From Spirochaetaceae bacterium (GTDB lineage Bacteria; Spirochaetota; Spirochaetia; DSM-27196; SLAA01), in contig REEM01000038.1 in the NCBI GenBank assembly GCA_007695055.1, positions 1-51,491 on the forward strand: 51,491 nt of DNA, given 5' to 3'. Under the pieces are notes generated by a model. The model was not told where the DNA came from and did not search any database. It was given only the letters and a program-made list of their open reading frames with translations. Positions 19,290 through 24,540 of this stretch are shown here, piece after piece. How positions within the stretch are numbered: position 1 is the first letter of the stretch; each line of letters starts with the position of its first letter. Both the position numbers and the translations under genes were made by a program.

Positions 19290-19814
19290 TCACCCTTCCG
19301 GAGGGCCCTTGTTCACATCATTGGTACCAAGGACCTCGGTCGAGCCTTTGGGCGTAGTTCGTCGAGCTCCGCTACGGCATTCCGTACACCCAAGGACATG
19401 AATATGCTTACGTCCCTCGCGCTCAAACATACGGGCAACCACGTAAGCATCTTTAGGGAGTGTAGCACGACAAACCGGACAGGTGCGAGCATTGGCTGCA
19501 GATGAGGAACCCGGTTTGCAGTAAGGGCAACCAAACATGTGAGTAATTGCGTCGCGCACCTCACCGCGCCGGGCCACACCTTGTGGGGCAGGAGGGCCCG
19601 AATACACGACCGTATGCACTCGCTCGCCTCGCCGAAGCATGGTACGACACAAGGGGCATGGGCGCAGAACCTCAAGTCCCTTGTTGCCGGAAACAGCTGC
19701 TCCGCTCGCGTGCGTCTTGCCACGAACTACCCCACCACCTTTGCCGAAACGCAGCAAACTGTAGATCAGGAGCGCGACCACAATACCAACGAAGGTGAGT
19801 ACGAAAAAATGGAT
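19290..19814 (-). CDS. Membrane-anchored zinc-ribbon protein with probable ATC start
   Basis: The protein has 174 residues from the proposed start, or 163 from the first conventional one (GTG 19781). From ATC 19814 the N-terminus is one continuous membrane helix (HFFVLTFVGIVVALLIYSLL) and AGGAGG lies exactly seven bases upstream. No ATG, GTG or TTG occurs in frame between an upstream in-frame TGA and GTG 19781, which would cut the helix in half. The soluble part carries four CxxC knuckles (CPLC, CPYC, CPVC, CTEC), enough for two zinc ribbons, ordered with long basic linkers. I do not recognise a named family. It is preceded by the divergent rsmI. Confidence 0.7.
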   Translation of the reverse strand: MHFFVLTFVGIVVALLIYSLLRFGKGGGVVRGKTHASGAAVSGNKGLEVLRPCPLCRTMLRRGERVHTVVYSGPPAPQGVARRGEVRDAITHMFGCPYCKPGSSSAANARTCPVCRATLPKDAYVVARMFEREGRKHIHVLGCTECRSGARRTTPKGSTEVLGTNDVNKGPPEG

Positions 19815-19868
19815 AGTAGAGCCTCCTGGTGACCTATCGGCGCAAATGGTAGTCGTACAATAGGGGGA

Positions 19869-19897
19869 TAGGCAAGCCGAGAGAGGGCGACTACACT
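19869..19897 (+). promoter_or_regulatory. Promoter for rsmI, predicted leaderless
   Basis: TAGGCA (19869-19874), 17-bp spacer, TACACT (19892-19897), 6 nt to the ATG of rsmI. No ribosome binding site precedes the ATG. Confidence 0.4.
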
Positions 19898-19903
19898 CAA
19901 TTC

Positions 19904-20584
19904 ATGGGTCGTGTATACGTAGTTGCTACACCAATTGGAAATCTGAAAGACATAACCTACCGCGCGGTTGAAATCCTCCATTCCGTGAATCTTATCCTAT
20001 GTGAGGACACAAGACATAGCCGCAAGCTGTTCCAAGCTTACGATATTCGAGCAGAACTCTGGAGCTGCCCACAGCAGCACCAACGCCGAGTTGCAGAACA
20101 GCTTTGCGAACGCCTGGGTGAGGACGGCGAAGCAGCCTATGTCAGCGACGCCGGAACTCCAGGAATTAGCGACCCAGGCAGTGCCCTGGTTGAGGTGCTC
20201 TACAAGGCTGGCCATGAAGTGGTACCTATTCCAGGCCCTTCCGCGCTCGCCGCAATCCTGAGTATTGACCCTTTCCCAGGAAAGACCGTAATTTTTGAAG
20301 GTTTTTTGTCGATCAAACGAGGAAAACGCCGATCTAGAATACAAGAGTTGCTTGTCAGCGGTGATAAGTTTATCCTGTACGAGTCACCGTATCGTATTGT
20401 TGCGGCACTGGCCGAGATTGCCAATGCCGAACCAGATCGGCAACTGATACTTGGCAGGGAAATGACTAAAATTCATGAGGAGTATCGTTTTGGCACGAGC
20501 GCTGAGATCCACAACGACTTCGCCCAACGTGATTCCGTTAAGGGTGAGTTTGCACTGCTTGTATCAGGTGCGAAAAAGCGTTAA
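19904..20584 (+). CDS. rsmI: 16S rRNA 2'-O-ribose C1402 methyltransferase RsmI
   Basis: A 226-residue SAM-dependent methyltransferase of the tetrapyrrole-methylase fold, slightly shorter than E. coli RsmI because the C-terminal domain is missing. The family opening VVATPIGNLKDITYRA is at 6-21, followed by CEDTRHSRKL, YVSDAGTPGISDPG and PIPGPSALAA, all RsmI signatures. It methylates the ribose of C1402 in the ribosomal P site. The start codon has no ribosome binding site but a promoter 6 nt upstream. Its TAA is shared with the -35 element of the flgM promoter. Confidence 0.95.
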   Translation: MGRVYVVATPIGNLKDITYRAVEILHSVNLILCEDTRHSRKLFQAYDIRAELWSCPQQHQRRVAEQLCERLGEDGEAAYVSDAGTPGISDPGSALVEVLYKAGHEVVPIPGPSALAAILSIDPFPGKTVIFEGFLSIKRGKRRSRIQELLVSGDKFILYESPYRIVAALAEIANAEPDRQLILGREMTKIHEEYRFGTSAEIHNDFAQRDSVKGEFALLVSGAKKR

Positions 20585-20608
20585 AATTAAGACACCGCAT
20601 GCCGATAC
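20582..20608 (+). promoter_or_regulatory. Sigma-28 (FliA) promoter of flgM
   Basis: TAAA at 20582-20585, spacer of exactly 15 bp, GCCGATAC at 20601-20608: eleven of twelve positions match the flagellar sigma-28 consensus. The TAAA lies on the stop codon of rsmI. The flgM start is 24 bp downstream, with GGAAGG between. Confidence 0.8.
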
Positions 20609-20632
20609 TACTATTGAAAGGAAGGCTCTGCG

Positions 20633-20917
20633 ATGACAATCGACAGGCTTGGTCCGATAGACCCGGTGCAAAAGTTTCAGAAAGCTCAAGGCGATGCAAA
20701 CGCTCGTCGTAAAGAAAGCGGTGACTCAATCGCATTCTCAGACGAAGCACGACTCAAGTCGGAGTTGCTACGAGCGCAAGATGCTGTACGCGCCGGACAA
20801 GACGTACGGGCGGACCGTATAGCCGAAGTTGCAAAAAAACTTGAGGATCCCAACTATATCGACAACAAGATTCTTGGTGTAGTTGCCGACCGGATAATGG
20901 ATGTCTTTGACTTATAA
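20633..20917 (+). CDS. flgM: FlgM-type anti-sigma-28 factor
   Basis: A 94-residue protein with the FlgM pattern: a disordered N-terminal third starting MTIDRLGPIDPV, a central DSIAFSDEARLKSEL resembling the D-x-V-x-l-S-x-e-A motif, and C-terminal helices with DVRADRIAEVAKKLEDPNYIDNKILGVVADRI, matching FlgM's r-x-e-K-v-a-e-l-k-x-x-I-x-x-G-x-Y motif. FlgM binds FliA and is exported through the flagellum once the hook is complete. The sigma-28 promoter upstream gives the usual negative feedback and supports the call independently. GGAAGG precedes the ATG by eight bases. Confidence 0.88.
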   Translation: MTIDRLGPIDPVQKFQKAQGDANARRKESGDSIAFSDEARLKSELLRAQDAVRAGQDVRADRIAEVAKKLEDPNYIDNKILGVVADRIMDVFDL

Positions 20918-20964
20918 GATCCTGCGTTAGCCCATGGCCGACGAATGCATTGGCCTGCCCTTGA

Positions 20965-20979
20965 GGCCGACTATCGGCC
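20965..20979. terminator. Small perfect hairpin between flgM and the ADH-like gene
   Basis: GGCCGA (20965-20970), loop CTA, TCGGCC (20974-20979). It lies 48 bp after the flgM stop. There is no T run, so it is at best a weak or factor-assisted end; it may just as well be a protein-binding palindrome. Confidence 0.3.
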
Positions 20980-21015
20980 ACAGTGGCAGAACGGACCTAA
21001 CAAGGCGGATGGCTG

Positions 21016-22167
21016 ATGCCGGATAGCGTTTTTCATGTACCCGCGCGAATCACTTTCGGCGTTGACGTACTCAATAGACTCGGCGTCATAGCTTCGTCTT
21101 ACGGAACCCGAGCTCTTCTTGTTACCGAACCTAATCTTCGTGATGCAGGGCATATTCGCAGAGTACAAGACCTTCTTTCAAAGAAAGGTATAGATGTAAT
21201 CCTCCACGATGAGCTCATGAGCGGTGCGCACGTTGGCTCAGTGGATGAGGCAATAGGGCTTGCTCGGGCTGGAAAGGTTCAAATGGTCATTGGGCTTGGA
21301 GGCATGAATGCGGTATTGGCCGCCCGTTGTGCCTCGGTTGCCGCTCCCAATCAGGAGGCCAGTAGCGCTTCGCTCCTGAACAGTGTGCCAAATCCTAAGG
21401 CTGCGCTCCCATGTATTGCCATTCCCACCGCGATCAGAGATCACTTTCTTTTTACCGAGGATGTTGTACTTGTCGACAGTTCTGCAAAGACTGCGCGCTC
21501 GGTACGTCTGGGGCCAAGTAGTATTCGTGAGGTGCTGGTAGATCCGCGCCTTAACCTGAGCCTTTCAAAGAAGGCGGTCGGCGCGGCTCTTCTGGACACG
21601 TTGGCAGCCGCCTGCGAGGGGTATTTTTCAAAAAGGAACACATTCCTCTCCGAGACCCTCTTTCTGGAGAGCTGCCGGGCCATCCATGATGCGGTTGAAC
21701 TCATACACAAACAGTCGGAGGATCTTCGAGGGCGATTTCGTGCATGTGAGGCAGGCATGGCCTGCGCAATTGCTTTGTCGTCCTCGGTGCAGGGACCCGC
21801 GGGTGCTCTAACCTATGCTATCAATGCGAAATACGCCATACCTAAGGCCTGGGTTGCTACTGTACTGTTGCCACACATGCTTGACTATGCCGTAGCACCA
21901 CGAACCGACCGAGTCGTAAAGGTTGCGGAAGCCCTTGGTGAGGAAGCCGACGGTCTAGACATTAACGACGACGCCAGCCGTGCAGCCTCCGCGGTGCGCC
22001 GGATGATGGGGCGCTTAGGGCTCACATCACGCTTACGGGACTTCGACATTCGCCTGGACGACATGTTCGAGATGTCCGAGATCGCGGCCGGATTCGAAAT
22101 GAGCGGGTACAGCCCGGTTGCACATTCTTCCGAGGACATCTACGAAATGGTTAAGGCTGCCTTTTAG
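21016..22167 (+). CDS. Iron-ADH-fold protein without catalytic residues (probable pseudoenzyme)
   Basis: The 383-residue sequence aligns end to end with iron-containing alcohol dehydrogenases: FHVPARITFGVDVLNRLG opening, ALLVTEP, DDMFEMSEIA and a near-C-terminal LPHMLDY. The functional motifs are gone. The cofactor motif GGGSxxD reads GLGGMNAV (93-100), TAGTGSE reads TAIRDHF (138-144), and of the four metal ligands only Asp194 remains: the DxxxH His is Ala198, and the HxxAH...PHG motif reads GALTY...PKA, so those His positions are Gly263 and Lys277. The frame is intact with normal codon use, so it is a maintained non-catalytic or re-purposed protein rather than a decaying gene. AAGGCGG precedes the start. 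It abuts the TrmH-type gene, 3 bp apart. Confidence 0.8.
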   Translation: MPDSVFHVPARITFGVDVLNRLGVIASSYGTRALLVTEPNLRDAGHIRRVQDLLSKKGIDVILHDELMSGAHVGSVDEAIGLARAGKVQMVIGLGGMNAVLAARCASVAAPNQEASSASLLNSVPNPKAALPCIAIPTAIRDHFLFTEDVVLVDSSAKTARSVRLGPSSIREVLVDPRLNLSLSKKAVGAALLDTLAAACEGYFSKRNTFLSETLFLESCRAIHDAVELIHKQSEDLRGRFRACEAGMACAIALSSSVQGPAGALTYAINAKYAIPKAWVATVLLPHMLDYAVAPRTDRVVKVAEALGEEADGLDINDDASRAASAVRRMMGRLGLTSRLRDFDIRLDDMFEMSEIAAGFEMSGYSPVAHSSEDIYEMVKAAF

Positions 22168-22170
22168 TCT

Positions 22171-23040
22171 GTGATCTCGCCACGTAAGTTCCGTCGTTTA
22201 CCCTACTCCACTCGACTACGAAAAAGTTACCGCATGGTGCTTGATCTGCAGCGGTGTCTTCGCCGTGGCGAACAGCCGGATACTGACATGGTGACGCTCT
22301 TGCACGCGGCCGCTGAACTCGGCCAGGAAGACGCCACTGCCGGGGAGGCCTCGGTATCGCTCGCTGCATTGGCAACAGCGCTGGCAGGAGACAAAGAAAC
22401 CACGCAGACTGGCCTTGAGTGGCTCTGTGACCGCGCAGCGGCCGCTCTTGAGACCCTGTGTGGCATAGCCCCAGCCGACTGGGATCTTCTTCCACCGCTC
22501 CAGCAGACGCAGCACCAGCAGCTTGCGCTGCTGCCACAGCCACATGAATCTGCGTCGGGCACCCTGCTTGAGTCGCCCACCCGACCGCAAACGGCCGCCC
22601 TCGCCGACATCAGCCTGTACCTTCAGGATCTGCGTTCGCCCTTTAATGTCGGATCAATCATCCGCAGCGCAGCCGCCTTCGGGTGTCGGGAGCTTTATCT
22701 GTCTCCGGGTTGCTCAAATGAACAGCACCCGCGCTGCCTGCGAGCTGCAATGGGAGCACACCACATGCTTGAAATCACGCGCATTTCTTTGAGCGAGCTG
22801 AGGGAGAGGCAGCCGGAGTCAACGGTTGTGGCCCTGGAAACCGGCGGAACTCCTATTAGCGAGTTTGTGTTTCCGCGGCAGGGAGTTCTGGTGCTGGGTA
22901 ACGAAGAACTAGGCATAGACTCATCAACGCTTGCCGCCCCGGATGCCCACCGGGTAAGCATTCCCTGCTATGGGGCCAAAGCGACCCTCAATGTAGGAGT
23001 TGCGGCGGGTATAGCTCTGTCCTGGTGGCGCGCCAGATAG
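22171..23040 (+). CDS. TrmH/SpoU-family RNA 2'-O-methyltransferase
   Basis: A 289-residue SPOUT methyltransferase. The catalytic C-terminal domain starts near residue 145 with YLQDLRSPFNVGSIIRSAAAFG (motif 1; Asn and Arg catalytic), then VLVLGNEELGI (motif 2) and IPCYGAKATLNVGVAAGIAL (motif 3), forming the trefoil knot that binds SAM. The first 140 residues are an Ala/Leu-rich helical region, not an obvious L30e-type domain. The RNA target (tRNA or 23S rRNA) is not decided by sequence. Translation begins at GTG 22171, immediately after the ADH-like stop. Confidence 0.88.
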   Translation: MISPRKFRRLPYSTRLRKSYRMVLDLQRCLRRGEQPDTDMVTLLHAAAELGQEDATAGEASVSLAALATALAGDKETTQTGLEWLCDRAAAALETLCGIAPADWDLLPPLQQTQHQQLALLPQPHESASGTLLESPTRPQTAALADISLYLQDLRSPFNVGSIIRSAAAFGCRELYLSPGCSNEQHPRCLRAAMGAHHMLEITRISLSELRERQPESTVVALETGGTPISEFVFPRQGVLVLGNEELGIDSSTLAAPDAHRVSIPCYGAKATLNVGVAAGIALSWWRAR

Positions 23041-23055
23041 CGGTGGTCGTGGTGT

Positions 23056-24540
23056 TTAAGCCCGCGCGTCGCGGTCAAAAGCCTCGGTGAGTCGCTCCTC
23101 AACCTTGAGGAGATCCGCTTCATTCTGCATTCGGAACTCACGCAGTGCTGGAAGGTAGACCTGGTCAAAGGAAAGGCTGTCTTGTTTGTAGTGGCAGAGA
23201 GTATTTGCCATGTACACCGCAAGGGTAACCTCTTGGAACTCATCAGGTGCATCAAGCGGGTGGTGGTGATACTTAATGGCATTCACTAAGGCGTCGGGAA
23301 AATTCCAGTTCTCAGCAACAATCCCGCCTATCTCTGCATGATTGACGCCGTTGGCCAGATCCTCAAAGAGCTCTACCGACAGTCCCTTATCGCGACAGAA
23401 GGCCTCCATTTTACCGTGGACTTCAGGATGCACTGACGAGAAAATGATTTTCCCCATGTCATGAAGAATGCCCCCAACGTATACATCATCTAACAGGTGT
23501 TTCTTACGGGTTATATTCTTGGTCAGGTTGTAGGCATAAAAGGCAGTGCGGTACGAATGCTCCCACAACTCTTTCGTTTCAGCAGTGTCCACACCCAAGA
23601 TCTTCTGAGTTCCGTATGAGTAAAGCAGATTGCGCAGCCCTCGCAAACCAACGAGCTTCACAGCCTCAACAATGTTATCTACCCGCTTTGGAAGCATAAA
23701 CTGTGCACTGTTGACAACCTTGAGCAGGTCAGCCGTAAGAGCCGGGTCCGTGGATATCTGGCGGGCTATTTCATTCAGTTCGGAGTCCGGGTCTGATATT
23801 GCTTTCTGTAAGTTGGTAATATTCTCAGGAAACCGTGGCAGACCTTCTATATACTTGGCCAGCTGATGTGAAATCATGTCAAGGTTCTCACTGCGCACCT
23901 CGGACATTGGTATGTTCAACTCGGCAATAGTCTCGCCGTTGCGCGAATCAATATCAAAGGCGTCTTCATCAAGTCCTATCTTCTTGAGCATGAGAACCAG
24001 TATTACAATACCCAGTCCAGCTCCCTCGGAGTCGTCTAGCACCGTGGTGAGCGCTTCCTCCAAGGAGTCAAATGCCCGTGAACGCGCAATGCGGTCATAT
24101 ACGCGAATTTGTTCTTTTTTATTGATCTCAGAGTTGTTTGCTACCGAAATTACCAGCTCGTTTCCACGTGCATGAAAGGTAATTTTTATGTAAAGACCGG
24201 CCTCTTTCTGCTTCTTCAAGTAGTAGTCGATATTGTCGAGTGTTTCCTGCTTGAATCTCTCCATACCAACTTGGTAGTCGGCGTCGGAGTTCATGTTCAA
24301 GCCTTTCTCTTGGAAGTAAACGCGCTTTGTGTTGGCCTTTTTGGCATTTACCGCAATCTCTCGCAAGCAGTAGGCCAAAGGGTCCCGCAACTTCTCTTGC
24401 CCCATTTCATTGAGGAACACGGCAAGCACGTCTTCTAACTGCACTTCGGTTTCATGAGGCAGGGTGTAGGTCTTTACGGTAATGGGAATACCGCTCCTGG
24501 CAGCCTGTAGGATTTTCTGTGTATCTACTTTCTTAGCCAT
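23056..24540 (-). CDS. GHKL ATPase-like / HDOD fusion regulator
   Basis: A 494-residue protein with two parts. Residues about 45-225 resemble a histidine-kinase-type ATPase: an N box (CLREIAVNAKKAN), a VISVANNSE segment where the Asp box would be, and a G2 box (SEGAGLGIVILVLMLKKIG). There is no dimerisation/His domain. Residues about 235-430 are an HDOD domain (ISHQLAKYIEGLPRFP, RQISTDPALTADLLKVVNSAQF, GLRGLRNLLYSY) with an HD pair in GGILHDMGKI. HDOD proteins act in signalling, often cyclic-di-GMP and motility, without confirmed hydrolase activity. A strong sigma-70 promoter drives the gene alone and gives about a 30-nt leader. Confidence 0.85.
   Translation of the reverse strand: MAKKVDTQKILQAARSGIPITVKTYTLPHETEVQLEDVLAVFLNEMGQEKLRDPLAYCLREIAVNAKKANTKRVYFQEKGLNMNSDADYQVGMERFKQETLDNIDYYLKKQKEAGLYIKITFHARGNELVISVANNSEINKKEQIRVYDRIARSRAFDSLEEALTTVLDDSEGAGLGIVILVLMLKKIGLDEDAFDIDSRNGETIAELNIPMSEVRSENLDMISHQLAKYIEGLPRFPENITNLQKAISDPDSELNEIARQISTDPALTADLLKVVNSAQFMLPKRVDNIVEAVKLVGLRGLRNLLYSYGTQKILGVDTAETKELWEHSYRTAFYAYNLTKNITRKKHLLDDVYVGGILHDMGKIIFSSVHPEVHGKMEAFCRDKGLSVELFEDLANGVNHAEIGGIVAENWNFPDALVNAIKYHHHPLDAPDEFQEVTLAVYMANTLCHYKQDSLSFDQVYLPALREFRMQNEADLLKVEERLTEAFDRDARA

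Follow-up and report, generated by a model that had tools for sequence, protein, structure and literature searches.

Why would a spirochaete maintain an intact gene of the iron-containing alcohol dehydrogenase (Fe-ADH) fold whose metal and NAD motifs have been replaced, and what might its product do beside the gene of an anti-sigma factor? The gene in question (pseudo-ADH) lies at 21016-22167 (+) of the window, a 51,491-nucleotide stretch (in contig C182 of genome G000) from a Spirochaetaceae bacterium. Its uninterrupted, full-length frame encodes 383 amino acids and is preceded by AAGGCGG (21002-21008, +), a likely ribosome binding site read from the sequence 7 nt 5' of the ATG. Upstream on the same strand are rsmI (19904-20584, +), encoding a 16S rRNA 2'-O-methyltransferase (TIGR00096, 198.8 bits; cut-off 167.9), and flgM (20633-20917, +), encoding the anti-sigma-28 factor (PF04316, 26.1 bits; cut-off 25). 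A SpoU-family methyltransferase gene (22171-23040, +; PF00588, 101 bits; cut-off 29.7) begins 3 bp past the pseudo-ADH stop. A scan of 19700-23300 for promoters and terminators gave counts not above those of shuffled sequence (3 versus 1.9 and 3 versus 3.3, respectively), which speaks neither for nor against an operon.

By homology and by predicted fold, the protein is a member of the PF00465/PF25137 Fe-ADHs. Both Pfam models are matched well above their cut-offs (PF00465, 78.9 bits against 31.3; PF25137, 78.1 bits against 27); none of the NCBIfam models attains its cut-off on the 383-aa protein. A phmmer comparison with 8zrl (4.2e-22) shows that homology to Fe-ADHs spans the whole length. The AlphaFold2 model, built with 39 orthologues as input, has a pLDDT of 92.2 and a pTM of 0.92, and its best matches among solved structures are all Fe-ADHs. 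Aligned to FucO (5br4) with VIA-align, it gives a Z of 51.6 and an rmsd of 2.0 over 381 residues.

What the protein has lost was read by alignment to Escherichia coli FucO and to a canonical paralogue from the same genome. The metal ligands of FucO, which we take to be Asp/His/His/His, align with D194 (21595-21597, +), A198 (21607-21609, +), G263 (21802-21804, +), and K277 (21844-21846, +), such that only the aspartate is retained. GGGSxxD is replaced by GGMNAVL (residues 95-101; 21298-21318, +) and TTAGTGSE by TAIRDHFL (residues 138-145; 21427-21450, +), while the HxxxH/PHG region reads G263-ALT-Y267/P276-K277-A278. The second His of HxxxH also varies among intact paralogues (His in 18 of 25), and thus its loss alone means little. 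The earlier note had described just this: an intact Fe-ADH-fold gene with a good ribosome binding site, set between flgM and an RNA methyltransferase gene, with all three motifs replaced and three of four ligands gone. Each of these points held on analysis. The losses exclude the established Fe-ADH reaction but would still allow a different one. Elsewhere in the same genome (contig C122, locus L002), a canonical Fe-ADH is intact and has every motif in place.

An ordinary pseudogene in decay would also lack its catalytic motifs. However, every listed orthologue has an open frame without stops, and the gene has been retained across the phylum at 20 to 95 percent identity. Within the genus, dN/dS is 0.024, 0.049, and 0.044 in three pairs; since synonymous sites are near saturation in two of these (dS 1.2-1.4), 0.049 (dS 0.64) is the safest value. 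The range of 0.024-0.049 resembles that of flgM (0.034-0.063) and lies below that of the SpoU neighbour (0.15-0.27). Decay is refuted by these three observations taken together, and we regard it as scarcely credible. The earlier note had read the intact frame as a sign of selection for a non-catalytic role: the selection is borne out, and the non-catalytic part we infer from the lost motifs.

The losses are shared throughout the family. Three genomes from the same genus (91-95 percent identity) have every loss in common with the window protein, four of the five genomes of a sister genus (g2) that hold a copy also show the losses (48-52 percent identity), and so do the remaining rows of a 39-row orthologue alignment (A1; 27-45 percent identity). 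Among the matches listed, the closest named relatives are Spirochaetales metagenome-assembled genomes, and the closest cultured relative is Alkalispirochaeta alkalica (38 percent identity). A profile search of 296 Spirochaetota genomes at 1e-30 matched 246, with a mixture of the pseudo-family and ordinary Fe-ADHs. None of the 69 best open reading frames of loci L052-L120 (several of which are the same gene twice) carries the canonical motif set.

We compared 54 hand-picked pseudo-family rows covering the families, with one or a few per family (A3), with 25 Fe-ADH paralogues of the phylum picked from the strongest other matches. All 54 representatives match both PF00465 and PF25137 at E 0.001. 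None has GGGSxxD or TTAGTGSE, and the number of ligands kept is zero in 27 rows, one in 24, and two in 3. In contrast, the paralogues keep four ligands in 22 cases and three in the other 3; GGGS and the Asp are retained in all 25, none has fewer than three ligands, and the two motifs are present with small variations. The catalytic set is missing from 39 of 39 orthologues in A1 and from 54 of 54 rows in A3. A clade with common losses is what the earlier note had expected of a re-purposed protein. Ligand-retaining close relatives, which it had named as a sign of recent decay, were sought and none was found among the three same-genus genomes. An intact gene that is under selection while its whole clade has lost the catalytic residues is the mark of a pseudoenzyme, and both this status and the selection on the gene are well supported.

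In an unrooted tree of 83 rows, a 100/100 branch splits the 25 canonical paralogues from the 54 pseudo-family rows and four degenerate ones. This is compatible with a single origin of the pseudo-family without proving it; the deepest branches on the pseudo-family side have poor resolution, and very long branches lead to two of the degenerate rows. An intact intermediate was sought beside flgM in 20 stretches from genomes that lack a clear copy or have flgM elsewhere, and none was found there. Four genomes (G052, G108, G057, and G199) carry full-length, even more degraded copies between flgM and SpoU.

The copies of families f15 and f20 (L175, L176, L177, and L178) are degraded much further, yet are full length and keep the flgM-gene-spoU position. 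They share 25-28 percent identity between families, and of the motif residues only GG is left. The model of an f15 copy finds Fe-ADHs in a Foldseek search (best match 6.7e-16), which is supportive of the same fold rather than firm evidence, as the model was built from four sequences and has a pLDDT of only 70.9.

If the old active site no longer holds a metal, it might have been rebuilt for another small molecule, making the protein a ligand sensor or a new enzyme. In class Spirochaetia, the cleft has gained basic residues (Arg or Lys at 98, R141, and K277) that might accommodate an anionic metabolite or nucleotide in the absence of a metal; R141 is invariant and K277 at least 90 percent conserved in the 39-row alignment. 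Furthermore, G95, G96, D176, and E201 remain conserved in the 54 rows. Across the phylum, however, the pocket drifts: R141 is found in 30 of 54 rows and K277 in 32 of 54, so that a conserved basic pocket holds within Spirochaetia and fails as a family-wide function. The former catalytic columns are of middle to high variability in the pseudo-family, with entropies of 3.67 at position 97 (among the most variable columns of the alignment), 3.30 at 198, and 3.12 at 263, compared with zero or less than 0.6 in canonical rows. A conserved ligand site should also not vanish in deep branches that keep the gene, as it has in f15 and f20, where only GG persists. We therefore consider a sensor or new enzyme unlikely, although it is the main rival to the reading developed below.

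Other columns have become more conserved than in canonical rows. The largest gain is at R339, which is present in 48 of 54 pseudo-family rows and in all four degenerate rows, but in only 2 of 25 canonical rows. The C-terminal Arg-Leu pair (R339-L340), within the signature LTSRLRD (residues 336-342; 22021-22041, +) identified by column counts, is nearly constant in the pseudo-family. R328, S205, K299, and D154 resemble R339 in the 54 rows, and not all of them are retained in the degenerate rows.

Gene order around pseudo-ADH is conserved. In class Spirochaetia, nearly all loci of sufficient length have the order small Cys-rich gene (-), rsmI, flgM, pseudo-ADH, spoU, HDOD gene (-), Lon-like gene (-), with the SpoU-family gene as the downstream neighbour. 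Outside this class, rsmI-flgM-pseudo-ADH survives, and most of the SpoU, HDOD, and Lon neighbours have disappeared. Among the 56 genomes with a clear copy, 46 have flgM directly upstream on the same strand: 45 detected by the FlgM profile (A4), and G067, where a weak 28-bit match lies between rsmI and the gene. The four genomes with degenerate copies were left out of this count because those copies were found by looking beside flgM. The gap between the flgM and pseudo-ADH matches is 9-276 bp in 49 genomes. In the other 10 of 56, flgM is elsewhere and the new neighbours of pseudo-ADH are mostly non-flagellar (an AEC transporter, a SpoIIE/GAF phosphatase, RNase H, and GidB). In one case away from flgM, in a Treponema-like lineage (G078), the gene adjoins fliQ-fliR-flhB-flhA, the first three assigned by Pfam and flhA by the position of the FlhA match. 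Here the gene moved along with spoU, and the case thus counts as one rearrangement.

Several neighbours have features of their own. The small protein encoded at 19290-19781 (-) of the window has CxxC pairs that recur along it, and no Pfam model matches it above cut-off; in most of the Spirochaetia loci inspected, its gene is conserved next to rsmI in divergent orientation. The HDOD protein (23056-24540, -), whose synteny is conserved in Spirochaetia, has a first 230 residues that are unmatched by Pfam and by eye resemble a histidine-kinase-type ATPase. In an f58 genome, GidB (RsmG) and SpoU are fused into one 550-aa protein encoded divergently from pseudo-ADH (L104:2456-4105, -).

The gene is restricted to genomes that carry FlgM. 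We searched 80 genomes, drawn from 51 families and in most cases no less than 90 percent complete, for pseudo-ADH (A3 profile), FlgM (A4 profile), and FlhA (PF00771). Pseudo-ADH scores separate clearly: 55 genomes reach at least 326 bits, and the next single match, at 296 bits, is canonical (L046). The total of 60 adds G084, whose copy is split over two contig ends, and the four degenerate copies beside flgM, which score 142-174 bits (G199 included). FlgM totals 68, comprising 67 by profile and G067, whose 28-bit match is at the right place. Both are present in 60 genomes, FlgM without pseudo-ADH in 8, neither in 12, and pseudo-ADH without FlgM in none (60/68 versus 0/12; Fisher test, 2e-9). 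This value is overstated: a single family (f16) accounts for 7 of the 12 genomes without FlgM, so that few independent events lie behind the co-occurrence. At the family level, the gene occurs in 42 of 51; four families are wholly FlgM-less (f10, f11, f16, and f26) and none has the gene, and f19, where FlgM is mixed, lacks it. Pseudo-ADH is found in 60 of 71 FlhA-positive and 0 of 9 FlhA-negative genomes, and all 60 copy-bearing genomes have FlhA. Since 11 of 71 flagellated genomes do without pseudo-ADH, flagella as such do not require it.

The linked genes include rsmI and spoU as well, so that there are candidate partners other than flgM. Together with the two methyltransferases, pseudo-ADH might act in rRNA methylation or translation rather than in the flagellum, as the place of rsmI within the conserved string, the adjacent SpoU in Spirochaetia, and the GidB-SpoU fusion in f58 would allow. 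Nevertheless, at least 13 loci from which pseudo-ADH has been lost or has moved away still keep rsmI with flgM, the 12 genomes without FlgM all lack the gene, and conservation of SpoU is far below that of pseudo-ADH. A role of this kind therefore seems improbable to us.

Fe-ADHs commonly form dimers, and canonical Fe-ADHs are also present in many of the copy-bearing genomes. Pseudo-ADH could then be a regulatory subunit that forms mixed dimers with a catalytic Fe-ADH or AdhE. However, among 20 genomes searched, 2 of which have no copy, a PF00465 search at E 1e-5 finds nothing but pseudo-ADH in 7 of the 18 that bear a copy (G064, G088, G099, G076, G096, G121, and G228). It thus need not partner a catalytic Fe-ADH. 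With no partner gene in these seven genomes, mixed dimers are rejected for them, and we consider the proposal highly improbable overall.

The best explanation, which we put forward tentatively, is that pseudo-ADH is an ancient, phylum-wide, non-catalytic pseudoenzyme that serves the FlgM/sigma-28 (FliA) checkpoint as a protein partner. Its job is probably regulatory rather than enzymatic, and the link to FlgM is suggested by gene linkage and co-occurrence. In this account, the metal and NAD sites of an old Fe-ADH would have gone before the sampled spirochaete orders radiated, and the protein would then have been retained in a non-catalytic form. Presumably cytoplasmic and co-transcribed with flgM, it may use a surface around the conserved C-terminal Arg-Leu region, which would be part of it, to bind FlgM or sigma-28. 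Such binding would tune the amount of free sigma-28 in a checkpoint for late flagellar genes. The 10 of 56 genomes with flgM elsewhere and the eight FlgM-bearing genomes without the gene are points against this role. That the protein is an unnamed checkpoint component that sets free sigma-28, maybe coupled to a metabolic signal, retained from an early stage of the phylum and lost with FlgM, is a possible but more doubtful proposal.

The available part of one study describes a pair in the related Treponema denticola, TDE0200 (tetrapyrrole methylase family) and TDE0201 (PMC3914990). In the available part of another, the FlgM homologue TDE0201 is stated, on preliminary data, to antagonise sigma-28 (PMC9481697). 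The tetrapyrrole methylase family is the class of RsmI, and this is the same pair as rsmI-flgM. Thus, as far as these excerpts go, loci of this type are likely to carry the flgM that encodes the real anti-sigma factor.

As these genes pass the Pfam cut-offs, automatic annotation can be expected to name them iron-containing alcohol dehydrogenases, crediting spirochaetes with an enzyme that is absent at this locus. Gene control of the periplasmic flagella of spirochaetes is not yet well understood. If the link to FlgM is functional, the whole phylum would have an extra regulator, which could be tested by one deletion.

In the open-access literature, as far as it was available in part, we found no description of an Fe-ADH pseudoenzyme that spans a whole phylum and is linked to flgM. 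Proteins of the FlgM/FliA checkpoint resemble pseudo-ADH in gene linkage and co-occurrence with FlgM; to our knowledge, an ADH fold occurs in none of the known components of this checkpoint. Group III Fe-ADHs (FucO, Bacillus methanolicus Mdh, and Zymomonas mobilis ADH2) share whole-length homology and fold with it, but pseudo-ADH lacks their metal-ligand set, GGGSxxD, and TTAGTGSE, and its clade is separate from the intact paralogues. The best-known Fe-ADH homologue named as regulatory is ErcA of Pseudomonas, whose model (NF041833) matches all 54 rows; the window protein, however, reaches 104.7 bits where the cut-off is 550. According to the available part of PMC12997753, the ErcA gene lies with a sensor kinase gene, whereas the neighbours in the window encode RsmI, FlgM, SpoU, and HDOD proteins, with no sensor kinase gene among them. 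Pseudoenzymes are a known kind of protein, and ErcA is, by name at least, an earlier example of an Fe-ADH homologue in regulatory use.
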